Assembly: GCA_016280695.1 (NCBI GenBank)
Contig: JAEEHG010000185.1
Coordinates: forward strand, 1 to 19,988
Source: Solobacterium sp.
GTDB taxonomy: Bacteria > Bacillota_I > Bacilli_A > Erysipelotrichales > Erysipelotrichaceae
Direction of reading: 5' to 3'
DNA length: 19,988 nt
Part shown: positions 7,896-18,673 of the stretch, in pieces
Layout of the letters: each line of letters begins with the position of its first letter
Position numbering within the stretch: the stretch's first letter is position 1
Notes under the pieces: model-generated
Seen by the model: only the letters and a program-made list of their open reading frames with translations
Database searches by the model: none
What the model was told of the DNA's origin: nothing
Program-made: the position numbers and the translations under genes

Positions 7896-9509
7896 ATGGA
7901 AGACATGATGAAGATTGAAAACACGGTCAGGGATCTGATTGCCTATGGACTGGAACGGAGCCTGATCGGTGCGGATGATGTGTACTATGCGGCCAACGGG
8001 ATTTTTGATGCGCTGCAGCTGGAACCGGAAGGGGACTTTGACCCGCACGGCGGCACGGCTGAACGGCCGCTGGAGGATATGCTGGCCGAGCTGCTGGCGG
8101 ATGCCGTAAACCGGGGAGTCATCGCCGGCGGGATCGCTTCCCGGGACCTGCTCGATACCCGGATCATGGGCGTGCTGACCCCAAGGCCTTCGGAAGTGAC
8201 AGCGGCGTTTGCGGCGCGGGAGAAGGAATCCCCGGCAGCGGCGACAGATTATTTCTACCGGCTGGCCCGGGATACGGATTACATCCGCACTTACAGGGTC
8301 AGGAAAGACCGCAAATGGCAGGCTGAAACCCCGTATGGGGCGCTGGATATCACCATCAACCTGTCCAAACCGGAAAAGGATCCGGCAGCCATTGCCGCGG
8401 CCCTGACCAAGAAGCAGGATGCTTATCCGAAATGTCTTCTCTGTGTGCAGAATGAAGGATATCACGGCCGGCTTGATCATCCGGCCAGACAGAATCTGCG
8501 GCTGATTCCCATGACCCTTGCCGGGGAAAACTGGTTCATGCAGTATTCACCGTATGTCTATTACAACGAGCACTGCATCGTGCTGTCGGCCCGGCATACC
8601 CCGATGGTCATTGACCATAACACGTTTGTGCGGCTGCTGCAGTTCGTGACCCGGTTCCCGCATTATATCCTCGGTTCCAACGCGGACCTGCCGATTGTCG
8701 GCGGTTCGATCCTGACCCATGAGCACTACCAGGGCGGCCGATATGAATTCCCGATGGCCCGGGCCGGCATCCGGCAGGAAGTGCAGTTCAGCGGCTTTGA
8801 AGATATCAGGGCAGGCATTGTGAACTGGCCGATGTCCGTGCTCCGTCTGCAGGGTAATGATACCAGCCGGCTGGTCGAACTGGCCGACCGCATCCTCTGT
8901 GCCTGGCGCAATTACAAGGACGAAGCGGCGGATATCCTGGCTTTCACCGATCCGGAGGGAAGGATCTGCCAGGCGGATTACGCGCATCTGCCGGAGGGCG
9001 TTGCCCCGCACAACACAATCACCCCGATTGCCCGCTGCCGGGACGGGCTGTTTGAACTGGACCTGGTGCTGCGCAACAACCGCACGACAGAGGAACATCC
9101 GCTGGGCATCTTCCACCCGCATGCCGAGCTGCATCATATCAAGAAAGAAAACATCGGCCTGATCGAGGTGATGGGGCTGGCGGTCCTGCCGGCCAGGCTG
9201 CTGGGTGAAATGGAACAGCTCCGGCAGGCCATGCTGGACGGGCTAGATATCCATGCGATTCCCGAACTGGCAGCGCATGCGGACTGGGCCGACGGGATCC
9301 GTTCTGCTTATCCGGCATACCGCCGGGATGCGGCGGCGGAAACGATCCGGACCGCGGGCCGCGCGAAGGCAGAGGAAGAACTTGCCGGCATCATTGAAAA
9401 GGAGATCGGCGTGGTCTTCTCACAGGTGCTGGAACATGCCGGGGTCTTCAAGAATACACCTGCCGGCAACGACGGCTTCCTGCGCTTTGTCAGCACCCTG
9501 AACAGGTAA
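7896..9509 (+). CDS. galT: UDP-glucose--hexose-1-phosphate uridylyltransferase, class II (Firmicutes type)
   Basis: Leloir-pathway enzyme that swaps UMP between UDP-glucose and galactose-1-phosphate. The 537-residue length and sequence fit the class II GalT of Gram-positive bacteria rather than the shorter E. coli type. Conserved stretches are GYHGRLDHPARQN (about 190-200), ENWFMQYSPYVYYNEHCI, GSNADLPIVGGS and the active-site HEHYQGG (His275, His277, Gln279). No galK, galE or galM lies in the window. Three candidate ATGs (7896, 7905, 7908) follow an AAGGGAAGGA ribosome site; the first was kept, but the second is equally plausible on spacing. A strong terminator follows. Downstream of maf in one operon. 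Confidence 0.94.
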   Translation: MEDMMKIENTVRDLIAYGLERSLIGADDVYYAANGIFDALQLEPEGDFDPHGGTAERPLEDMLAELLADAVNRGVIAGGIASRDLLDTRIMGVLTPRPSEVTAAFAAREKESPAAATDYFYRLARDTDYIRTYRVRKDRKWQAETPYGALDITINLSKPEKDPAAIAAALTKKQDAYPKCLLCVQNEGYHGRLDHPARQNLRLIPMTLAGENWFMQYSPYVYYNEHCIVLSARHTPMVIDHNTFVRLLQFVTRFPHYILGSNADLPIVGGSILTHEHYQGGRYEFPMARAGIRQEVQFSGFEDIRAGIVNWPMSVLRLQGNDTSRLVELADRILCAWRNYKDEAADILAFTDPEGRICQADYAHLPEGVAPHNTITPIARCRDGLFELDLVLRNNRTTEEHPLGIFHPHAELHHIKKENIGLIEVMGLAVLPARLLGEMEQLRQAMLDGLDIHAIPELAAHADWADGIRSAYPAYRRDAAAETIRTAGRAKAEEELAGIIEKEIGVVFSQVLEHAGVFKNTPAGNDGFLRFVSTLNR

Positions 9510-9527: not shown

Positions 9528-9561
9528 AGGCTTCTGCCTTTGACAGGCAGAAGCCTTTTTT
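9528..9561 (+). terminator. intrinsic terminator after galT
   Basis: A twelve-base-pair stem (AGGCTTCTGCCT at 9528-9539, AGGCAGAAGCCT at 9545-9556) with loop TTGAC is followed by six T's to 9561. Confidence 0.93.
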
Positions 9562-9640: not shown

Positions 9641-9661
9641 GAAGCGCCCGGAGGAATCATG

Positions 9662-10804
9662 ATGCAAGAACAGAACAAGGCCCTGAAGGCCTGGCGGCTG
9701 ACGGCGATCATCGCCATCTGCCTGCTGGTAATTACCAATCTGATGCATTTTGCGGGAACCGGAAGCCGCGGGGAAGAACCGGCGGAACCGGAACCGGCTG
9801 AGACAGAAACAGCGGAGAAATCCGCGGCGGAAGTCCTGTCGCTGTGGCAGGAAGACGCGCCGGCCCGCAAAGAACTCATTTCGTTTATGGAAGCCGTCAC
9901 GGACCCGGACAGCCCGGATTATATTCCGGTGGAAAACCGGATTGCCGTGTTTGATCTGGACGGGACCCTGTTCTGCGAAACTGATCCGAATTACTTTGAC
10001 TATACCCTGCTGGTGCACCGGGTTCTGGAAGATCCGGATTATATTGACAAAGCCAGCGATTTCGAAAAGGAGATTGCCGGCAAAATCGTGGAGCAGAACG
10101 AGACCGGCGCGTCATTTGCCGGGCTTGAAGTTGATCATGGTCAGGCGATCGCTTCCTCCTTTGCCGGCATGACCCTGGCGGAATTCAATGCGTATATCCA
10201 GGAGTTCAAGCAGCTGCCGATGCCGGGTTATGAAGGCATGAAGCGCGGCGAGGGCTGGTATCAGCCGATGCTGGAAGTCGTGAATTACCTGCAGGAAAAT
10301 GATTTTACCGTCTATGTGGTCAGCGGCACGGACCGCTTCATCGTCCGGGGCATTGTCGACCAGTCCCCGCTGCATGTGCCGATGGGACAGATCATCGGAT
10401 CTGACGAGACGGTCGTGACCCGCAAGCAGGGCGGCACGGACGGGCTTGGCTATGTGTTTGACGACCAGGACGAACTGGTGCTGGGCGGCGAATTCATCAT
10501 CAAGAACCTGAAGATGAACAAGGTCGCGGTGATTGTCCAGGAGATCGGTGTGCAGCCGGTGCTCTCCTTCGGCAACAGCACCGGTGATTCCAGCATGGCT
10601 GAATATGTCACGACCGGCAATCCGTACCGCAGTCTGGCCTTCATGCTGTGCTGCGACGATACCGAACGGGAAAACGGCAACACGGCAAAGGCTGACAAGA
10701 TGTATGAACTCTGCCGGCAGTATGACTGGATCCCGGTATCCATGAAGAATGACTGGACAACTATTTACGGAGACGGGGTTGTCAGGAAAAAGACAACGGA
10801 ATAA
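9662..10804 (+). CDS. membrane-anchored extracytoplasmic HAD-family phosphatase
   Basis: Protein of 380 residues. A basic N-terminus (KALKAWR) precedes one hydrophobic helix (about 13-31) without a lipobox, then an acidic Glu/Pro-rich linker (about 38-58). This predicts a signal anchor with the catalytic domain outside the membrane. HAD motifs are present: nucleophile motif VFDLDGTLFCE (Asp98, Asp100), VVSGTDRF (motif II) and GNSTGDSSM (acidic motif). The large insert between motifs I and II is a helical cap. Haloacid-dehalogenase phosphatases hydrolyse phosphomonoesters; the substrate is unknown. Two adjacent ATGs exist; the second (9662) is seven bases from GGAGG and was chosen over 9659. 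The following STAS gene begins 15 bases later, so it heads the cluster. Being outside the cell, it cannot directly dephosphorylate the cytoplasmic STAS proteins. Confidence 0.8.
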   Translation: MQEQNKALKAWRLTAIIAICLLVITNLMHFAGTGSRGEEPAEPEPAETETAEKSAAEVLSLWQEDAPARKELISFMEAVTDPDSPDYIPVENRIAVFDLDGTLFCETDPNYFDYTLLVHRVLEDPDYIDKASDFEKEIAGKIVEQNETGASFAGLEVDHGQAIASSFAGMTLAEFNAYIQEFKQLPMPGYEGMKRGEGWYQPMLEVVNYLQENDFTVYVVSGTDRFIVRGIVDQSPLHVPMGQIIGSDETVVTRKQGGTDGLGYVFDDQDELVLGGEFIIKNLKMNKVAVIVQEIGVQPVLSFGNSTGDSSMAEYVTTGNPYRSLAFMLCCDDTERENGNTAKADKMYELCRQYDWIPVSMKNDWTTIYGDGVVRKKTTE

Positions 10805-10819
10805 ACAGGAGAAACAATA

Positions 10820-11122
10820 ATGCTGAAGATCAATAAGACAACTGATGCCGGCAAGGTCAACATCAGTCTGGAGGGCAGACTGGATACCGTAACCTCGCCG
10901 GAACTGGAAGCCGAACTGAAGGAAACCATGGACGGGATCAGCGAACTGACACTGGATTTTGCTGCCCTTGACTACGTCTCATCCGCCGGCCTGCGGGTGC
11001 TGCTGGCGGCCCAGAAAACCATGATGAATCAGGGCACGATGAAAATCGTGAACGTTAATGAGGTCGTTATGGAAATCTTTGAAGTTACCGGATTCACTGA
11101 CATTCTGAAAATCGAGCCGTAA
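10820..11122 (+). CDS. STAS-domain protein, anti-sigma factor antagonist-like (SpoIIAA/RsbV type)
   Basis: A single STAS domain of 100 residues, the classic size of SpoIIAA/RsbV. Such proteins bind an RsbW/SpoIIAB-type kinase when unphosphorylated and release it when phosphorylated on a conserved serine. The key loop YVSSAGLRVLL holds Ser54-Ser55, the equivalent of the phosphorylated position. ISLEGRLDTVTSPEL near the N-terminus and the C-terminal FEVTGFTDILKI are typical of the family. ACAGGAG lies well placed before the ATG. The neighbours are a STAS-kinase fusion (30 bases on) and an RsbW-like ATPase, so it is very probably one partner in a local switch. No PP2C phosphatase is encoded nearby to reactivate it. 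Confidence 0.92.
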   Translation: MLKINKTTDAGKVNISLEGRLDTVTSPELEAELKETMDGISELTLDFAALDYVSSAGLRVLLAAQKTMMNQGTMKIVNVNEVVMEIFEVTGFTDILKIEP

Positions 11123-11152
11123 GGCTGAACAGGCATAGACAGGAGAAACAGT

Positions 11153-12349
11153 ATGACGCAGATGGACAACACAGTAATGATCAGGCTGAGCGGCCGGATC
11201 GATTCGGCCAATTCCGCCGAAATTGAAAACGATATTCTGAAACAGCTGGAAGGAAAAACGGATACCGCTGTCACCCTGGATGTTGAAGAACTGGAATATA
11301 TATCCAGTGCCGGCCTGCGGGTGATTCTGCGGGTGAAGAAAACATGGCCGGATGTCAGGATCATCAACGCCTCACCGGAAGTCTATGAAATTCTTGAAAC
11401 GACCGGATTTACGGAGATGATGACGGTAGAGAAAGCGTATAAAGTCATTTCTGTGGAGGGATGTGAAGTCATCGGTGAAGGCTTCAACGGAAAGGTATAC
11501 CGGGTTGACAAGGACAATGTTGTCAAAGTCTATAAAAACGCGGACGCACTGGCGGATATCCAGCATGAGCGGGAAGTGGCCCGGCTGGCGCTGATCCTGG
11601 GCGTGCCGACTGCCATTTCCTACGACGTCGTGAAGGTCGGTGACAGTTACGGCTCGGTTTTTGAACTGCTCAATGCCCGTTCCTTTGCCAAGATCCTGGC
11701 TGATGAGCCGGAGCGGATGGACTGGTGTGTCAGTGAGTATATCAATCTGCTGAAGAAAGTTCACGGCATCACGGTGCCGGAAGGCAAACTGCCTTCGTCC
11801 AAAGAGAAAATCGTCAAGTGGGAGAATGAAATCAGGGCGGATCTGCCGGAAGCCGAAAGCAGGAAGCTGGAGCAGCTGATTGCGGGCCTGCCGGATTCCG
11901 ACCATATGATCCACGGGGATTACCATACAAAGAATATCGTGCTGGCCGGTGATGAAGTCCTGCTGATTGACATGGATACACTCTGTGCCGGGTATCCGAT
12001 CTATGAACTGGCCCAGATGTACAACTCCTACATCGGCTTCTCTGAATATAATCCGGAAATTGTCAGGGACTTCCAGGGCTTCAGTCCGGAAACAGCCCGG
12101 ACATTCTGGCATAAGTGCCTGCAGGCCTATTTTGAGACGGAAGACGAGGAAAAACTGAAAAAACTGGAAGACAAGATCCGCTGCGTATCCTATACCCGGC
12201 TGATCAGCTGGAAGTACCGGCATCCTTCCAATAACTCGGAGGAGGACAAGGTGACTGCCGAGCTCTGGAAGAGCCATCTTTCGGAGCTGCTCGAACGGGT
12301 TGACTCGCTGTCCTTTGAGGACGGGGATACAGATGCCCAGGGTGGCTGA
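11153..12349 (+). CDS. STAS domain fused to aminoglycoside-phosphotransferase-like kinase
   Basis: Two-domain protein of 398 residues. Residues 1-95 are a STAS domain resembling the preceding gene product, with the phospho-acceptor loop YISSAGLRVIL (Ser51-Ser52) and ILETTGFTEMM at its end. From about 105 there is an APH/choline-kinase-like fold: glycine loop GEGFNGKVY (108-116), Lys125 in VVKVYK, catalytic HGDYHTKN (Asp256, Asn261) and metal-binding LIDMDT (Asp273). The kinase part resembles the TIGR02172 group of putative phosphotransferases (recalled family, not searched). Its substrate is unknown; options are a small molecule, a STAS serine or another protein. AGGAG precedes the ATG. There is no membrane segment. 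It lies between the free STAS gene and the RsbW-like ATPase gene, consistent with one signalling complex. Confidence 0.88.
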   Translation: MTQMDNTVMIRLSGRIDSANSAEIENDILKQLEGKTDTAVTLDVEELEYISSAGLRVILRVKKTWPDVRIINASPEVYEILETTGFTEMMTVEKAYKVISVEGCEVIGEGFNGKVYRVDKDNVVKVYKNADALADIQHEREVARLALILGVPTAISYDVVKVGDSYGSVFELLNARSFAKILADEPERMDWCVSEYINLLKKVHGITVPEGKLPSSKEKIVKWENEIRADLPEAESRKLEQLIAGLPDSDHMIHGDYHTKNIVLAGDEVLLIDMDTLCAGYPIYELAQMYNSYIGFSEYNPEIVRDFQGFSPETARTFWHKCLQAYFETEDEEKLKKLEDKIRCVSYTRLISWKYRHPSNNSEEDKVTAELWKSHLSELLERVDSLSFEDGDTDAQGG

Positions 12350-12373
12350 CTGCACCGGCCGGGTAATAATTCT

Positions 12374-12784
12374 ATGAAAGAACTGACAATTGCGGCCCGG
12401 ATTGAAAGCATTCCGACCGTGACAGCTTTTGTGGAGGAGCAGCTTGAAAAGCTGGACTGCAGCCGGAAAGCGCAGATCCAGATCGCGGTGGCCGTCGATG
12501 AGATTTTCAGCAACATTGCCAGGTATGCCTACGGCCCCGAAGGCGGCGAGGCGACAGTCCGGGTGGAGACGGAGAAGGACCCGGCTGCGGTGGTGATTGC
12601 CTTTATCGATCATGGCCGGCCGTTTGACCCGCTGGCGAAGCCGGATCCGGACCTGATGCTGGGACCGGAGGAAAGAAATATCGGCGGGCTGGGTATTTAT
12701 CTGGTGAAAAAAACCATGGATGATGTGCACTACGAATACAGCGGCGGTCAGAATATTCTGACGATCAGGAAGCAGGTCAGCTGA
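12374..12784 (+). CDS. SpoIIAB/RsbW-like ATP-binding protein (HATPase_c_2)
   Basis: Stand-alone GHKL ATPase domain of 136 residues, the size of RsbW and SpoIIAB. These act as serine kinases for STAS antagonists and as anti-sigma factors. The N box VDEIFSN (Asp42-Asn47, Asn47 binding Mg2+), G1 box IDHGRPFDP (Asp79) and G2 box NIGGLGIYLVKK (Gly104-Gly107) are all intact, so ATP binding is expected. No transmembrane segment. The start at 12374 has only a poor ribosome site (GGGTAA), perhaps because translation re-initiates after the upstream stop 24 bases away. Likely partners are the two STAS domains encoded just upstream. Whether it binds any sigma factor is not shown by the context; the only sigma gene nearby has its own membrane regulator candidate. 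Confidence 0.9.
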   Translation: MKELTIAARIESIPTVTAFVEEQLEKLDCSRKAQIQIAVAVDEIFSNIARYAYGPEGGEATVRVETEKDPAAVVIAFIDHGRPFDPLAKPDPDLMLGPEERNIGGLGIYLVKKTMDDVHYEYSGGQNILTIRKQVS

Positions 12785-12812
12785 ATACGGCAGCCGGATA
12801 CGGGAGGAAACC

Positions 12813-13592
12813 ATGACGGATATCAAAGCGATCTTTTTCGATGTGGACGGTACGCTGATGTCGCATAAGCAGAATGATGTGCCGGCCAGTACCCGGCGGG
12901 CGCTGCATGAGCTCCGGCTCAGGGGCATCAAAACAGTGGTTGCGACCGGGCGGCATATGATCGAACTGTCCAAACTGCCGGTCAGTGATATTCCGTTTGA
13001 CGGCTACCTCACACTGAACGGGAACCTGATGCTGGATGCCAGCCGGAAAGTATATGCCGGAACCCCGATTGACAAGGGGGAAATGGAAGTCCTGTCACGG
13101 ATCTTCACAGCCAAGCGCATTCCGTTTGTCATGATCGGCGAAAACGACCGGTACATCAACTACATCAATGAAACCGTGATCAAAACCCAGCATGATACCA
13201 AGGGAACCGTACCGGAAGTCGGCGGTTATACAGGGGAAAACGTCTATCAGATCCTGGCTTTTGTCCCGCAGCATCAGAAACAGCTGCTGGATGATCTTCT
13301 GGATGAGTGCTCGGTTACCAGCTGGAACGATACCGGCATTGATATTATCCCGAAGGGCGGCGGAAAGTCCGCGGGGATTCAGAAATTCCTGGATGAAGAA
13401 GGACTGGACCGTTCCCAGATCATGGCTTTCGGGGACGGCGAGAATGATATCGAGATGCTGAAGTTTGCCGGAATCGGCGTAGCCATGGGCAATGCCAGTG
13501 ATACTGTCAAGGCGGCGGCTGATTATGTTACGGATTCAGTGGATAACCGCGGTATTGAGAAGGCTCTGAGACACTTCGGATTGATTGAGTAA
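12813..13592 (+). CDS. Cof-type HAD-IIB family hydrolase
   Basis: Cytoplasmic HAD phosphatase of 259 residues, close to the normal Cof/YidA length; these dephosphorylate sugar phosphates, FMN, PLP and similar small metabolites. Motif I is FFDVDGTLMS (Asp10, Asp12), motif II VVATGR, motif III Lys185 in KGGGKSAGI and motif IV FGDGENDIEM (Asp208, Asp212). The C2B cap lies between about 80 and 180. GGGAGGAAA precedes the ATG. It lies between the RsbW-like gene and the MATE-fusion gene on one strand with gaps of 28 and 10 bases, so it is co-transcribed; whether it takes part in signalling is unknown. Confidence 0.93.
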   Translation: MTDIKAIFFDVDGTLMSHKQNDVPASTRRALHELRLRGIKTVVATGRHMIELSKLPVSDIPFDGYLTLNGNLMLDASRKVYAGTPIDKGEMEVLSRIFTAKRIPFVMIGENDRYINYINETVIKTQHDTKGTVPEVGGYTGENVYQILAFVPQHQKQLLDDLLDECSVTSWNDTGIDIIPKGGGKSAGIQKFLDEEGLDRSQIMAFGDGENDIEMLKFAGIGVAMGNASDTVKAAADYVTDSVDNRGIEKALRHFGLIE

Positions 13593-13602
13593 AAGGGGAT
13601 AT

Positions 13603-15381
13603 ATGTCTTTTAAAGCGGAAACGGGAAACAGCGCGATTGTCAGGAAGACACTCTTCAGGCTTCTGCCGGCGCAGATCATGCTGGCATCCTCGAGTGCTTT
13701 AACCGTTATCATTTCAAGCCTGTTTGCCGGCAATGTCATCGGGCCTGAAGCGATGACGGCAGTGGGCCTGTACAGTCCTGTAAATATGCTGATCGGTGCG
13801 CTTACCCTGATGATGGTTTCCGGTTCACAGATACTTTGCGGCCGGTATATGGGAAAGAACCAGCTGGAACAGACAGGCGCTGTTTTCACGCTGGATCTTG
13901 TAACAACCCTGACTGCCGCGGCTGTAATCATACTGATTCTTCTGCTTGGGGCCGGACTTAATCTGACCGTGTGGATCTGTGCAGATGCCGCCGCGAGAGC
14001 CTATCTGAATCTGTACATTATCGGTCAGGCGGCCGGAGTGATCCCGCTGATGATGACGCAGCAGCTGGCAGCGTTTCTTTCCCTGGAGAACCAGAACCGG
14101 CGGACAACTGCCGGGGTCGCGGTACTGCTTGCCGCAACGCTGCTGTTCAATTACCTGTTCGTTGTCAGAATGCACGCCGGTACCCTGGGGCTGGCGCTGG
14201 CGGCCTCGCTGTCGCAATGGGCGCTTCTGTCTGTTCAGGCCGGGTATTTCCTTTCCGGAAAGTCCAAGGTGAAATTCAAACGCAGCAGTATGCGGCGGCA
14301 TGACGCTGTGGAAATAATCCTGCTCGGGGCGGCCGGTTCCATCAGTTACTGCTGGCAGGCGCTGCGCGGACTGGTTCTCAATAACCTGATCCTGCAGTAT
14401 GTCGGCAGTGCCGGGGTTTCCGCGCTGGCTACGGCCAATACGCTGCTGAGTGTATTCTGGGCTGTCCCGGCCGGCATGATTGCGGTTTCGCGCATGCTGA
14501 TGAGTGTGGCGGTCGGGGAAGAAGACCGTCAGACACTGATTGATGTCATGAAAAACATGATACGGCGATTTGTCCCGCTGACGGCGGTCATGGCTGTTTG
14601 CCTGGCCGCATGCGCAGTGACGTTTACCCGGCTGTATTACCGTGATGCTGCCGCGCCGGTGTACCAGATGACGGTGCAGGGATTCAGGCTGCTGCCGTTA
14701 TGCATGCCGCTGTCTGTGATCTGCATGCATTTTGTCGGGCTGAACCAGGTTTTCGGAAAACAGCTTCCGGTAAATCTTCTGTCGCTGCTGGACGGGGTTG
14801 TATTCGTTGCCGGATTCTCTGCTCTGCTGACCCCGGCGTGGGGACTGCGGGGTGTTTACATTGCGAATATTCTGAACGGGCTGTGCCTGCTGCCGGTCAT
14901 ATTCTGCTATGCCTGTCTGCACCGCCGCAGGCTGCCGGAAACTCCGGAAGCCGTGCTTGCCCTGCCGGATACCTTCGGGGCAGAGGACGGTGACCGGATG
15001 GATATGACAATGGCAAGCATGGAAGAAGTGGTTAATGTCGCACAGCAGGTGGGGGCTTTCTGCCGGACGAAAGGTTTTGATGAAAGGAAATCCGAACTGG
15101 CCGGGCTGGCAATGGAGGAGATGGCCGGCAATGTCGTGGCCCATGGTTTCCGGAAAGACAGCAAAAAACACGCGGTGGATATCCGGGTAGTCTGCAAGGC
15201 GGATGATCTGATTCTCAGGATCAGGGATGACTGTGTACCGTTTGATCCGGAGGAGCGGAGCCGGATCGTTGACCCGGAAGATATTACAAAGAATATCGGC
15301 ATCCGGATGATCTACGGACTTGCCGAACAGGTCCGGTATCAGAACATGCTGGGCCTGAATGTACTGACGATCCGGATGTAG
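13603..15381 (+). CDS. MATE-family transporter fused to C-terminal RsbW-like ATPase domain
   Basis: Fusion of 592 residues. Residues 1 to about 445 are a MATE (multidrug and toxic compound extrusion) transporter of twelve expected helices, with the N-terminal LLPAQIMLASSSALTVI and repeated MATE-type segments such as AGNVIGPEAMTAVGLYSPV. After a basic loop (CLHRRRLPE) and a linker, residues 465-592 form a cytoplasmic GHKL domain related to the free ATPase of the cluster. It has N box LAMEEMAGN (Glu505, Asn510), G1 box RIRDDCVPFDPEE (Asp542-Asp543) and G2 box NIGIRMIYGL (Asn564, Gly566), ending in NVLTIRM. The G2 box lacks one glycine of the free protein. A TTG-initiated extension to 13585 exists, but ATG 13603 has AAAAGGGGA just upstream. 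Transport substrate unknown. Confidence 0.88.
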   Translation: MSFKAETGNSAIVRKTLFRLLPAQIMLASSSALTVIISSLFAGNVIGPEAMTAVGLYSPVNMLIGALTLMMVSGSQILCGRYMGKNQLEQTGAVFTLDLVTTLTAAAVIILILLLGAGLNLTVWICADAAARAYLNLYIIGQAAGVIPLMMTQQLAAFLSLENQNRRTTAGVAVLLAATLLFNYLFVVRMHAGTLGLALAASLSQWALLSVQAGYFLSGKSKVKFKRSSMRRHDAVEIILLGAAGSISYCWQALRGLVLNNLILQYVGSAGVSALATANTLLSVFWAVPAGMIAVSRMLMSVAVGEEDRQTLIDVMKNMIRRFVPLTAVMAVCLAACAVTFTRLYYRDAAAPVYQMTVQGFRLLPLCMPLSVICMHFVGLNQVFGKQLPVNLLSLLDGVVFVAGFSALLTPAWGLRGVYIANILNGLCLLPVIFCYACLHRRRLPETPEAVLALPDTFGAEDGDRMDMTMASMEEVVNVAQQVGAFCRTKGFDERKSELAGLAMEEMAGNVVAHGFRKDSKKHAVDIRVVCKADDLILRIRDDCVPFDPEERSRIVDPEDITKNIGIRMIYGLAEQVRYQNMLGLNVLTIRM

Positions 15382-15415: not shown

Positions 15416-16453
15416 GTGAATCAGATTGTTATTACAGGACTTATCTCAGTGGCTGCATTCGGGTTGTTTGCCTACTCGTTTCATAAGGACAGAAGCAGAT
15501 ACCGCAACTGCAATCTTCTTTTTCTGGCACTGCTTTCGCTGATTCCTTTTACTGTGGCGCTATCCGGGGAAAACAGCGGCAGGGTTCTGTTTGTCATCGG
15601 CATGACGGTTTTTATTTCATTGATGATCGTTCCGTTCTTCCTGATTCATAACGGCATCGTGATGATCCGGCGTGAAGGCCATCAGATTGCGCATATGCTG
15701 TCACTGGTGCTGGGGCTCCTTATCCTGATCGGGGAAATCGCGACCATTGCCGCTGTGCTTATCTATTACACAGGGGACCCGGACCTGATCCCGGAAACAT
15801 CCCGGCTGTTTGTACGCGGGATCATGGTCTTTATCAGTGTTTCAGTCATATACGGATCCATGGCGTTTCTGATCTTCATGATCTACTCTGTTTTCCTGAT
15901 GATCATTCCGATAAAAAGGGACTTTGATTATGTCATTATCCTGGGGGCCGGACTGATTGACGGCAGCCGGATTTCCCGGCTGCTCAGAGACCGGCTGGAC
16001 AAAGCCATCGCGGTTTACCGACGTGATCCGACACCGCCTGTCCTGATTGCTTCCGGCGGGCAGGGCGGCGATGAAACCATTTCGGAAGCTGCCGCCATGA
16101 AGCACTATCTCGTGAACCGGGGCATCCCGGAAATGGATGTCCTCGTGGAAGACCAGTCGAAAAACACCTTGGAAAACCTGAAGAATTCCAAGGCAATTCT
16201 CGATGAGTTTGACGGGCGGAAATACACGGCGCTGGTCACCGGCAATTATCATGTGTACCGGGCTCTTCGGAATTGCCGGAAAATCGGCCTTGCGTGTACA
16301 GGAATCGGCAGCCGGGTTGCCTTCTATTTCTGGCCGAGTGCCCTGATCCGTGAATTCATCGCGGTTCATACCGAACCGAAACATGCCGTGTTATACGGAT
16401 CCGGCTGGCTGTTCTGGCTGCTGGTCGGGTTCAGGATTTTCGGCATAATATAA
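15416..16453 (+). CDS. membrane protein with DUF218 (YdcF/SanA/ElyC-like) domain
   Basis: Protein of 345 residues that starts at GTG (AGGGGAG seven bases upstream). The N-terminal half has about five hydrophobic helices (near 4-20, 33-49, 57-80, 92-117 and 132-165). The DUF218 Rossmann-like domain follows (about 173-330) with IILGAGLIDG, ASGGQGGDE, an SxNTxEN motif (DQSKNTLENL) and TGNYHVYRA. A last hydrophobic helix is at the C-terminus. Gram-negative ElyC and SanA, the characterised relatives, act in envelope polysaccharide metabolism and vancomycin tolerance; most Gram-positive members are uncharacterised. It follows the MATE fusion by 34 bases and is followed by a 113-base gap before the sigma gene, without a visible terminator. 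Confidence 0.85.
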   Translation: MNQIVITGLISVAAFGLFAYSFHKDRSRYRNCNLLFLALLSLIPFTVALSGENSGRVLFVIGMTVFISLMIVPFFLIHNGIVMIRREGHQIAHMLSLVLGLLILIGEIATIAAVLIYYTGDPDLIPETSRLFVRGIMVFISVSVIYGSMAFLIFMIYSVFLMIIPIKRDFDYVIILGAGLIDGSRISRLLRDRLDKAIAVYRRDPTPPVLIASGGQGGDETISEAAAMKHYLVNRGIPEMDVLVEDQSKNTLENLKNSKAILDEFDGRKYTALVTGNYHVYRALRNCRKIGLACTGIGSRVAFYFWPSALIREFIAVHTEPKHAVLYGSGWLFWLLVGFRIFGII

Positions 16454-16566: not shown

Positions 16567-17127
16567 ATGTCTGATGACCTGCTGTATCAAAAATATCTGA
16601 ACGGCGATCAAGCGGCCGGGGATGAACTTATGCTTCGCTACGGTGATTCCCTCACGGCCTATCTGGACGCTTTTCTTCATAATATACAGGATGCCGAAGA
16701 TCTGATGATCGATTGTTTTACCGTTATCCTTGTCAATAAACCCAGGATTGCGGAAGGCTGTTTCCGGGCATACCTTTTCAAGATGGCACGGAACATGGCA
16801 AACCGCCTCTGGAGGGTCCGGCTCAGAAGGAAGGAATTCAGCCTCGATGAGAATCTGATTGAGACACTGCCGGCTTATGATGAAACATCGCCGGAAGCCA
16901 TTTTTCACAGGAATGAGCGCAGCGCTGTTCTGCAGAAATGCCTGAACCGCATTGCCCCGCAGTACCGTGAAGCTCTTTGGCTGGTATATATGATGGATCT
17001 GCGTTACGCAGATGCCGCAATGGTCCTGGGATGCGGGACAAAGCGGGTGGAAAACTTATTGAGCAACGGGAAGGCAAGGCTTCGCCTGGAACTGGAAAAG
17101 GAGGGCATCACACATGCGGACATCTGA
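16567..17127 (+). CDS. ECF-like RNA polymerase sigma-70 family factor
   Basis: Protein of 186 residues with only regions 2 and 4, the ECF layout. Region 2 covers about 20-85, with DAEDLMIDCFTVIL for core binding and FRAYLFKMARNMANRLWR for -10 recognition. A short linker leads to region 4 (about 118-175: LNRIAPQYREALWLVY, then the helix-turn-helix DAAMVLGCGTKRVENLLSNG). AAGGAGAG lies six bases before the ATG. The stop overlaps the next gene by 14 bases, so the sigma factor and the small membrane protein are co-translated, the usual arrangement for a sigma/anti-sigma pair. The 113 bases upstream contain AACC and CAAC motifs and a TAAAAT (16522-16527), but no promoter can be fixed with confidence. 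The target regulon is unknown; the downstream surface-protein operon is a natural candidate. Confidence 0.9.
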   Translation: MSDDLLYQKYLNGDQAAGDELMLRYGDSLTAYLDAFLHNIQDAEDLMIDCFTVILVNKPRIAEGCFRAYLFKMARNMANRLWRVRLRRKEFSLDENLIETLPAYDETSPEAIFHRNERSAVLQKCLNRIAPQYREALWLVYMMDLRYADAAMVLGCGTKRVENLLSNGKARLRLELEKEGITHADI

Positions 17128-17437
17128 AGAACGTATACTGGAACTGCACGAGCGTATGAGTTTGATGCAGAGCCGGAAGCGGCACAATAAATACATCATG
17201 CAGTGCGCGGCCGCCGGGACTGCCTGTCTTGCCATCATGGTGCTGCTGGGGTTCGTTATTGCCGGGGCGCCGGTTCACAGCATGCCGGTCCGCCCGGACG
17301 GTATCTCTGCCAGCATCTTTGCGGATCATGCAGTACTGGGATATATCATCATTGCCCTGCTGGCATTCTGCCTGGGCGTATCGTTTACGATATTCTGTTA
17401 CCGGCTGCGGAAACACACGGAGGAACGCAATGATTGA
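17114..17437 (+). CDS. small two-helix membrane protein, candidate anti-sigma factor
   Basis: Protein of 107 residues. A charged N-terminal segment (1-27, EERILELHERM motif) would be cytoplasmic. It is followed by a helix (about 29-51), a short outer loop of roughly 20 residues, a second helix (about 73-96) and a basic tail. It is not a zinc-finger anti-sigma factor: no HxxxCxxC is present. AAGGAGG is nine bases before the ATG. It overlaps the sigma gene by 14 bases and the next gene by 8. Position and topology suggest that it holds the ECF sigma factor at the membrane and is the substrate of the PrsW protease encoded two genes on (inference). A clear paralogue is encoded at 18818-19153, sharing EER, LHxRM and the two-helix layout. 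Confidence 0.8.
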   Translation: MRTSEERILELHERMSLMQSRKRHNKYIMQCAAAGTACLAIMVLLGFVIAGAPVHSMPVRPDGISASIFADHAVLGYIIIALLAFCLGVSFTIFCYRLRKHTEERND

Positions 17438-18047
17438 AAGCATTGAAAATGCACTGCAAATCATCGTCCTGCTGATCTGTTCCGGAATCGCATTGTATCG
17501 GGCAATTGCCAATCACAGCCAGACATGGGTTTTGGCATTCCTGTTCTTCGGCAGCTGGCTTCTGGGGGATATTTACTGGCTGGTATGCCTGCTGTTTTAC
17601 GGCCAGACCCCGCAGATTTCCATCGTATCTGATCTGAGCTGGTATGGTTCCTATATTTTTCTGTATCTTCTGCTGTACCACAGCTCCGCCCCTGACAAAG
17701 ACAACAGAAAACACCGGCTTCCGTGGCTTGGCCCGGTCTTTGCGGCCGGAATGGCAGTCTTCTTCATAACGCAGGGCGAGCTTCTGAGTAATCTGATCTA
17801 TGCATCACTGATGGGGCTTCTTCTGTTTGCTGCCCTCAACCGGCAGATTGACCGGAAACGCTATCAGAACCAGCAATTATTGTCCAGTATGATCCTGCTG
17901 TTCTGCCTGCTTGAATACGGACTCTGGACCGCATCCTGTTTCTGGAAAACGGATACATTGTCCAATCCATATTACTGGTTTGACTTTCTTCTGACTGTCA
18001 GTTTTGTTTTCTTCCTCCCGGCAATCAAAAAGGCGGTGACAGAATGA
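17430..18047 (+). CDS. conserved-looking seven-helix membrane protein of unknown function
   Basis: I do not recognise a characterised family. The protein of 205 residues is almost entirely hydrophobic with about seven helices (near 8-25, 32-56, 66-84, 98-114, 118-136, 150-168, 178-199). Distinctive segments are FGSWLLGDIYWLVCLLFYG and SDLSWYGSYIFLYLLLY, with an aromatic-rich helix pair that could form a binding pocket. A basic loop (NRQIDRKRYQNQ) should face the cytoplasm. The frame is open further upstream, but the ATG at 17430 has GGAGG at the right distance, and the longer version would overlap the preceding gene extensively. It overlaps the preceding gene by eight bases and PrsW by four. 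The tight packing suggests a sensor or accessory role in the sigma pathway (inference). Confidence 0.75.
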   Translation: MIESIENALQIIVLLICSGIALYRAIANHSQTWVLAFLFFGSWLLGDIYWLVCLLFYGQTPQISIVSDLSWYGSYIFLYLLLYHSSAPDKDNRKHRLPWLGPVFAAGMAVFFITQGELLSNLIYASLMGLLLFAALNRQIDRKRYQNQQLLSSMILLFCLLEYGLWTASCFWKTDTLSNPYYWFDFLLTVSFVFFLPAIKKAVTE

Positions 18048-18673
18048 ATTATATTGAAAATTCCTATATCTGCCTGGCGGCGCCGGTCCTGCTGGCAATT
18101 CTGTGCCTGCGGGGCCCCGGGCGCAGAAGCCTTGCGTTCGTATTGTCGGGTATGACAGTCTGCCTGCTCTCGGCATATATCAGTACGTTTCTTGCCGGTT
18201 CGGCAGGTGTAGACCTGACAACCGCCTCTTATGAGATATCCCCGGCAGTTGAGGAGATCATGAAATCCCTGCCGCTGCTGTTTTACGTTCTGGTATTTGA
18301 ACCGGACAGGGGAACCGTTATTGCCGGGGCCCTGCTTGTGGCAGTCGGTTTTGCCACATTTGAGAACGTCTGTTTCCTGACATCCTACGGCACGTCAGAT
18401 CTGCTGCATCTGATGATCCGCGGCTTCGGTACGGGGGCCATGCACGTTGTATGCGGCATGATCATAGCTGTCAGCCTGCTTTATCTCTGGGACCGGCTGC
18501 GCCTGAGGATTGCCGGTACGTTCGCAGTCCTGTGTCTTGTTGTTACTTTTCATGCAGTCTTCAATATCTTCGTCAATCAGGCCGGTATCGTATTCTGGAT
18601 CGGCAGTCTAATACCGCTGATAGTGATTCTTGTATATCTGATATTCATCCGGAACAGAGTCGGCACAAGCTGA
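18044..18673 (+). CDS. PrsW-family glutamic intramembrane protease
   Basis: Polytopic membrane protein of 209 residues. It carries the PrsW signature series: SPAVEEIMKSLP (Glu70-Glu71, Lys74), GFATFENV (Glu107), Arg126, GTGAMHVVCG (His134) and TFHAVFN (His170, Asn174), all within predicted helices. In B. subtilis, PrsW makes the first cut in the anti-sigma factor RsiW and so releases SigW; the paired glutamates are essential. Here it closes a four-gene overlapping unit begun by an ECF-like sigma factor and a two-helix membrane protein, which strongly suggests the same job. The ATG overlaps the previous stop as ATGA. The upstream site (AAGGCGG) is weak, consistent with translational coupling. 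A terminator follows. The wider CPBP/CAAX protease superfamily is the alternative name. Confidence 0.88.
   Translation: MNYIENSYICLAAPVLLAILCLRGPGRRSLAFVLSGMTVCLLSAYISTFLAGSAGVDLTTASYEISPAVEEIMKSLPLLFYVLVFEPDRGTVIAGALLVAVGFATFENVCFLTSYGTSDLLHLMIRGFGTGAMHVVCGMIIAVSLLYLWDRLRLRIAGTFAVLCLVVTFHAVFNIFVNQAGIVFWIGSLIPLIVILVYLIFIRNRVGTS

Follow-up and report, generated by a model that had tools for sequence, protein, structure and literature searches.

A candidate partner-switching module in Solobacterium and related gut bacteria, with a kinase and a transporter as putative outputs

In the SpoIIAA/SpoIIAB/SpoIIE and RsbV/RsbW/RsbU systems of Bacillus, docking of a STAS protein on an RsbW-type protein frees a sigma factor, which is the best-known role of a partner switch. 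Switches with non-sigma outputs are also known, among them SiaABCD in Pseudomonas and SypA/SypE in Vibrio, whose outputs are a diguanylate cyclase and biofilm control. Here we describe a gene cluster (10820-15381, + strand) from a metagenome-assembled genome (MAG) of Solobacterium sp. in which STAS and RsbW-like domains are joined to an APH-fold kinase and to a MATE transporter. The stretch of DNA analysed (the window) is the whole of contig C242 (19,988 bases); the MAG comprises 1.74 Mb in 291 contigs and is 77% complete, so that absence of a gene from this single contig says little. We read the cluster, with a probability of roughly 55%, as one half of a partner-switching module, the half that holds its outputs, the kinase and the transporter; the phosphatase gene of this module would lie in another part of the genome.

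Like the Bacillus systems, the module combines STAS proteins carrying an SSxGL-type serine motif, an RsbW-type HATPase_c_2 protein and a SpoIIE-type PP2C phosphatase in the genome; among solved structures, STAS gave sequence matches to SpoIIAA-type chains and the kinase to RsbW (6m36). Unlike them, it has no linked SigB/F, its PP2C lies on another contig, one STAS is fused to APH and one RsbW-like domain to MATE, and its members fall below the equivalog cut-offs for SpoIIAA (TIGR02886; 48.2 against 114.75 bits), SpoIIAB (TIGR01925; 21.5 against 135) and RsbW (TIGR01924; 28.8 against 155.05). It differs from SiaABCD and SypA/SypE in that the outputs would be an APH kinase and a MATE transporter. 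The kinase shares the APH fold and motif residues with TIGR02172/APH (PF01636) kinases but carries an N-terminal STAS domain and, in relatives, often a C-terminal RsbW domain; the transporter domain (residues 14-441; best solved match BH2163, 5c6n) is that of MATE (MOP) transporters, with an extra C-terminal RsbW-like domain. Judged from sequence searches, the two as joint outputs of a partner switch look like a new variant.

Domain composition and conserved residues

The composition proposed in a first-pass annotation (STAS, STAS-kinase, GHKL ATPase, Cof HAD and MATE-GHKL on one strand) was confirmed by Pfam. A free STAS protein of the anti-sigma-factor-antagonist type (10820..11122; PF01740, 54.7 bits; TIGR00377, 67.6 bits, over cut-off) is followed after 30 bases by the STAS-APH fusion (11153..12349), with STAS at residues 1-96 (59.1 bits) and the APH-fold kinase at residues ~97-388 (PF01636, 61.8 bits against a cut-off of 23.2). 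Next, after 24 bases, comes a free RsbW-like HATPase_c_2 protein (12374..12784; PF13581, 88.2 bits) and, after a further 28 bases, a Cof-type HAD small-molecule phosphatase (12813..13592; Hydrolase_3, 178.7 bits; TIGR00099, 177.1 against a cut-off of 137). The last gene, overlapping the Cof gene by 8 bases, encodes MATE-HATPase (13585..15381, with an alternative in-frame ATG start at 13603), made up of a MATE domain (residues 1-450; PF01554, 42.7 bits against a cut-off of 24.9) and a C-terminal RsbW-like HATPase domain (residues ~477-597; PF13581, 50.0 bits). Two of the four STAS matches and two of the three RsbW-like HATPase matches of the 1.74-Mb MAG are concentrated in these 4.6 kb, which argues against a chance grouping; a fourth HATPase match, on contig C183, was read from its sequence as a sensor kinase.

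In the free STAS protein, residue 55, the second serine within SSAGLR, is the predicted phosphorylation site, and we take it to correspond to Ser58 of SpoIIAA. Both serines of the SSxGLR motif are kept in all 80 fused STAS sequences that reach the motif and in 68/68 classed as free STAS, although one of these, in L090, is part of a fusion that has been disrupted. The N, G1 and G2 boxes are intact in the RsbW-like protein of the window, as they are in nearly all of the 65 APH-fused copies found in relatives. The C-terminal domain of MATE-HATPase is related to the RsbW set (hhalign probability 96.8/100, E 2e-10) and, among 15 copies, retains the N-box Glu (15/15), the N-box Asn (14/15) and the G1 Asp (15/15). 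The APH motif residues are conserved in 81/81 sequences; STAS-APH scores below the TIGR02172 cut-off (105.4 against 228.2 bits), and the fold matches of its kinase domain include many APH enzymes, with choline and other kinases at close Z.

Relatives, phosphatases and co-inheritance

A contig scan of genomes confirmed 108 loci coding for relatives of STAS-APH, and the best 80 of these were analysed, with neighbours counted within 4 kb on the same strand. STAS-APH-RsbW forms one chain in 65/80 loci; the neighbours were free STAS (57 loci), PHP (53), PP2C (44), DUF218 (21) and MATE-HATPase (14). Where both flanks extend to 4 kb or more (43 loci), 37 were fused, and the corresponding neighbour counts were 32, 30, 27, 18 and 10. 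Another RsbW lies within 4 kb in 6 of the 15 unfused loci. Four of the seven other STAS-APH loci of the window's family (L113, L114, L117 and L118) have the order STAS, PP2C-RsbW fusion, STAS-APH; such a PP2C-RsbW fusion also lies within 4 kb of STAS-APH in L091 and L092 (three of the six were checked with Pfam). A free RsbW adjoins STAS-APH in L115, and L119 has both RsbW and STAS as free proteins, along with a piece of a PP2C. The link between RsbW and STAS-APH thus takes three forms: RsbW is part of the same chain, encoded by the next gene, or fused to a nearby PP2C. As regards conserved gene order, co-occurrence of the domains is conserved in two families, but the exact order is narrow: it is whole in only 2/80 loci (L013, the nearest to the window with 99% over STAS-APH, and L014), and L015 has the same order without the free STAS.

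The first-pass annotation had described the system as lacking a PP2C phosphatase. None is encoded in the window, yet PP2C is a common neighbour in relatives and the MAG has one SpoIIE-type PP2C match, a protein of 738 amino acids on contig C281 with dCache-SpoIIE architecture and a HAMP match below cut-off. The gene order on C281 is STAS, PHP phosphoesterase, PP2C, and contig C121 carries a further STAS directly 5' of an RsbW-like gene; the free STAS of the window is 66% identical to the C281 STAS, and its RsbW-like protein is 70% identical to the C121 paralogue. The C281 PP2C is 49% identical over 726 amino acids to the PP2C adjoining the STAS-APH-RsbW gene in L043, also dCache-SpoIIE. A SpoIIE-type PP2C was present in the genomes of 80/80 loci, within 4 kb in 44 and elsewhere in 36 (L068 and L077 share one MAG); whole-genome search of the 36 genomes lacking a PP2C at the locus gave SpoIIE over cut-off in 36/36, with E <1e-45 in 35/36. 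By these matches, the module of the window is very probably served by a phosphatase whose gene lies outside the cluster. The ends of C281 and C121 overlap by 367 bases at 95.6% identity (L010:1-367, L011:10443-10809), within a gene read as dihydroorotate/dihydropyrimidine dehydrogenase-like; because of this overlap, the two partner-switch loci may be neighbours in the genome.

Presence or absence of full-length STAS-APH (E <1e-90) was determined across the 95 genomes of the window's family (the first family), and 5 further genomes that match by single domains only were excluded from the count. Eight genomes carry it (G000, G002, G015, G018, G058, G067, G071 and G092). A PP2C match of >160 bits was found in 10/95 genomes, comprising all 8 carriers and 2/87 others (p 4e-10), these two being G013 (68% complete) and G022 (85% complete). 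MATE-HATPase, counted without matches that cover the MATE part alone, is present in 7/8 carriers and in 0/87 others (p 7e-10); it is intact in six (p 3e-8 for intact copies only) and apparently broken in one, where it occurs as two pieces in different frames (L126, G002:C18:9032-9809). In genera g1, g3 and g24 the carriers have both genes, and a species without STAS-APH is also without MATE-HATPase; two species of the window genome's own genus gave no match for STAS-APH, PP2C or MATE-HATPase. In a second family of 146 genomes (centre G105; both proteins at E 1e-60 or better), STAS-APH was found in 29 genomes and MATE-HATPase in 10, all of them among those 29 (0/117 others; p 2e-8). At the thresholds applied, then, neither family yielded MATE-HATPase in a genome that lacks STAS-APH. 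Apart from the window's own genome, the 6 first-family carriers of MATE-HATPase have the two genes on separate contigs, as do 4/10 carriers of the second family; a shared island is therefore not the simple cause of their co-inheritance, although MAG contigs are short and the genes may still be near each other.

A phosphohydrolase census, with the neighbour limits given above, was made over 87 loci (the 80 above and 7 from the window's family). Phosphohydrolases of three unrelated folds occur in 62/87 loci (PHP in 53, HD_4 in 6, Cof in 3), with no two kinds together at any locus; among the 48 loci with full flanks, the counts were PHP 30, HD_4 3, Cof 3 and none 12. HD_4 was assigned at the six loci by hidden Markov model (HMM) and confirmed with Pfam at three. 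The two PHP proteins scanned came nearest to RNase RNM and to 3',5'-nucleoside bisphosphate phosphatase, with scores far under the cut-offs, and the two HD_4 proteins scanned to the RelA/SpoT family, below cut-off. The pattern suggests, and no more than suggests, that a phosphohydrolase is useful beside the STAS-APH kinase and can be swapped, with a hint of a phosphorylated small molecule. Small proteins consisting of HD_4 alone, a RelA/SpoT-like hydrolase domain, were seen at L114:4937-5515, L117:7175-7741 and L119:5787-6353, and also in L033, L091 and L092. A further, divergent family, X200, lies beside STAS-APH in 14/80 loci (L042:7302-7916, L062:3128-3715, L113:3394-4002 and others); it has a predicted SpoIIAB/RsbW-like fold, and the single member scanned gave no Pfam match. 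One protein near a STAS-APH-RsbW cluster (L045:11736-13166) is an MscS-type channel with a C-terminal X200 domain.

Proposed mechanism and alternatives

In the mechanism that we propose, the C281 membrane sensor PP2C (dCache, weak HAMP, SpoIIE) would take the phosphate off the STAS serines, which the RsbW-like kinases (at 12374 in the window and on C121) would phosphorylate. STAS without phosphate would then dock onto RsbW-type surfaces. Since docking surfaces sit within the effectors (the APH kinase carries STAS, the MATE transporter an RsbW-like domain), the switch would most likely set the activity of a small-molecule-type kinase and membrane transport. The adjacent phosphohydrolase (Cof in the window; PHP or HD_4 in relatives) would reverse the kinase product. 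We infer these steps, the direction of control and the substrate included. Fusion and co-inheritance give strong indirect support to the gating of transport or phosphotransfer suggested by the first-pass annotation, an interpretation that is partly borne out as a whole.

Several observations weigh against this mechanism. In 15/15 copies of the MATE-fused HATPase, other residues replace the Gly of G1 and the Gly-Gly pair of G2; because of this loss the domain may not bind ATP, and its binding of STAS is only predicted. The transporter is an optional output, as 19/29 STAS-APH genomes of the second family and 1/8 of the first are without MATE-HATPase at the thresholds used. The latter is G058 (best 13 of 27 candidates scored), whose locus (L120) shows STAS-APH without any other module part. 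No RsbW lies within 4 kb in 9/15 unfused loci, several of them at contig ends, and 25/87 loci have no same-strand PHP, HD_4 or Cof gene within 4 kb. Among the 80 loci, the Cof gene stands within 4 kb of STAS-APH in L013-L015 only and so belongs to the cluster in a single lineage; it may be a bystander, and the MAG also retains a PHP gene, on C281. The Fisher p values are too small, since related genomes overstate independence; mis-binning in MAGs may create or conceal co-occurrence; and genomes rich in MATE-like candidates were scored on the best 13 (first family) or 9 (second family). Finally, SigB/F/G is over cut-off in 17/29 second-family carriers, and in 22/29 at E 1e-55.

This last count also speaks for the strongest alternative, an ordinary transcriptional switch of the Rsb type. 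Under it, the free STAS and RsbW proteins would control a sigma factor, be it the ECF factor at 16567, the RpoD-like one on C130 or, in spore formers, SigF, and the kinase and transporter fusions would serve as decoys or accessory inputs. We regard it as improbable, though it fares better than the others considered here. The RsbW boxes of the window are intact, and sigma-70 family proteins over cut-off in the MAG, named by sequence reading, comprise a partial RpoD (C184), the second RpoD-like factor (C130) and ECF factors on C155, C154 and C242, with weaker matches on C163, C101 and C96. Against it, a short C130-like RpoD-like factor was found in only 3/8 carriers among the matches listed. The ECF gene (16567-17127), absent from the first-pass account, begins 1.2 kb 3' of the cluster, but its HMM matched nothing beyond the window, an excerpt of C242 itself and L014; L015 has no ECF gene beside the cluster, and L013 ends too early to judge. 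After the ECF gene come a small open reading frame that encodes a hydrophobic stretch (17114-17437) and a gene for a PrsW-like intramembrane protease (18044-18673); this row (16567-18673) seems to be a unit of its own, of the ECF/anti-sigma/protease kind, the anti-sigma role being a guess.

The statement that there is no sigma-B/F gene held for the MAG (77% complete) and for the other seven first-family carriers, none of which has SigB/F/G (TIGR02980) over the curated cut-off, but not for the second family. TIGR02980 was over cut-off in 23/95 first-family genomes and 0/8 carriers (p 0.19, not significant alone). Second-family genomes have SigB/F/G in 114/146 cases at cut-off and in 132/146 at E 1e-55, and carriers are without it more often than the others (12/29 against 20/117 at cut-off, p 0.010; 7/29 against 7/117 at E 1e-55, p 0.008). 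On these counts the module does not need such a sigma factor, and cross-talk is possible in genomes that have one. Of the two parts of an ordinary Rsb system missing from the cluster, the PP2C is in the MAG, on C281, and SigB/F/G over the curated cut-off was not found there. A sigma target would also leave the RsbW-like domain on the transporter unexplained.

That the APH domain is instead a protein kinase acting on a module protein, which would make the output a further round of protein phosphorylation and not a metabolite, is less probable still: most of its fold matches are small-molecule kinases (for aminoglycosides, choline, tryptamine and aminopropanol), and a frequent neighbour is a phosphohydrolase most closely related to families with small molecules or nucleotides as substrates. 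Least of all do we favour independent genes in a busy region, with fusions of no regulatory meaning; the narrow exact order, the commonness of Cof and HAD genes, and the separate contigs that hold MATE-HATPase in the remaining first-family carriers would fit this, but the fusions recur (65/80 loci), MATE-HATPase tracks STAS-APH in two families, and g1, g3 and g24 keep both genes or neither, the exception being g2, where G058 has STAS-APH alone.

Flanking genes and biological meaning

Two further + strand genes adjoin the cluster. One (9659..10804; PF12710, 30.0 bits against a cut-off of 27) encodes a protein that resembles HAD-family phosphatases and, by its sequence, has a hydrophobic N-terminal stretch. 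It ends 15 bases 5' of the free STAS gene and is possibly the first gene of the unit; its HMM also matches L013, L014, L050 and, weakly, L021, with no match in L015. A DUF218 (ElyC/SanA-like) membrane protein (15416..16453; PF02698, 106.2 bits) begins 34 bases 3' of MATE-HATPase and is probably the distal gene of the unit. All gaps from the HAD gene to DUF218 are ≤34 bases. A strong terminator-like hairpin (9528-9556; 12 pairs, T-rich tail) lies 5' of this run, after an upstream gene that ends at 9509, and + strand hairpin matches within the run have 5-7 pairs and all lie inside coding sequence. Elsewhere in the window, 960-2684 encodes a CoA-disulfide-reductase-like protein, below the equivalog cut-off, with ~120 extra C-terminal residues that we take to be rhodanese-like.

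Taken together, the data would fit a wider but tentative picture, which we hold to be possible rather than probable: a signalling family, widespread among gut Clostridia and Erysipelotrichaceae, whose STAS, RsbW and PP2C parts exert post-translational control over a metabolite kinase-phosphatase pair and membrane flux, with STAS on the kinase, an RsbW-like domain on MATE and X200, once fused to MscS, as a further docking partner. The metabolite may be a 3'-phosphorylated nucleotide, because the nearest families to the swapped phosphohydrolases are 3',5'-nucleoside bisphosphate phosphatase for PHP and the RelA/SpoT hydrolase for HD_4. If the proposed mechanism is true, bacteria reuse a sigma-type docking switch for rapid, transcription-free control of metabolism and membrane traffic. 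It also gives candidate partners for STAS-APH, MATE-HATPase and X200, gut-bacterial proteins of unknown role, and co-inheritance shows which pairs to test.

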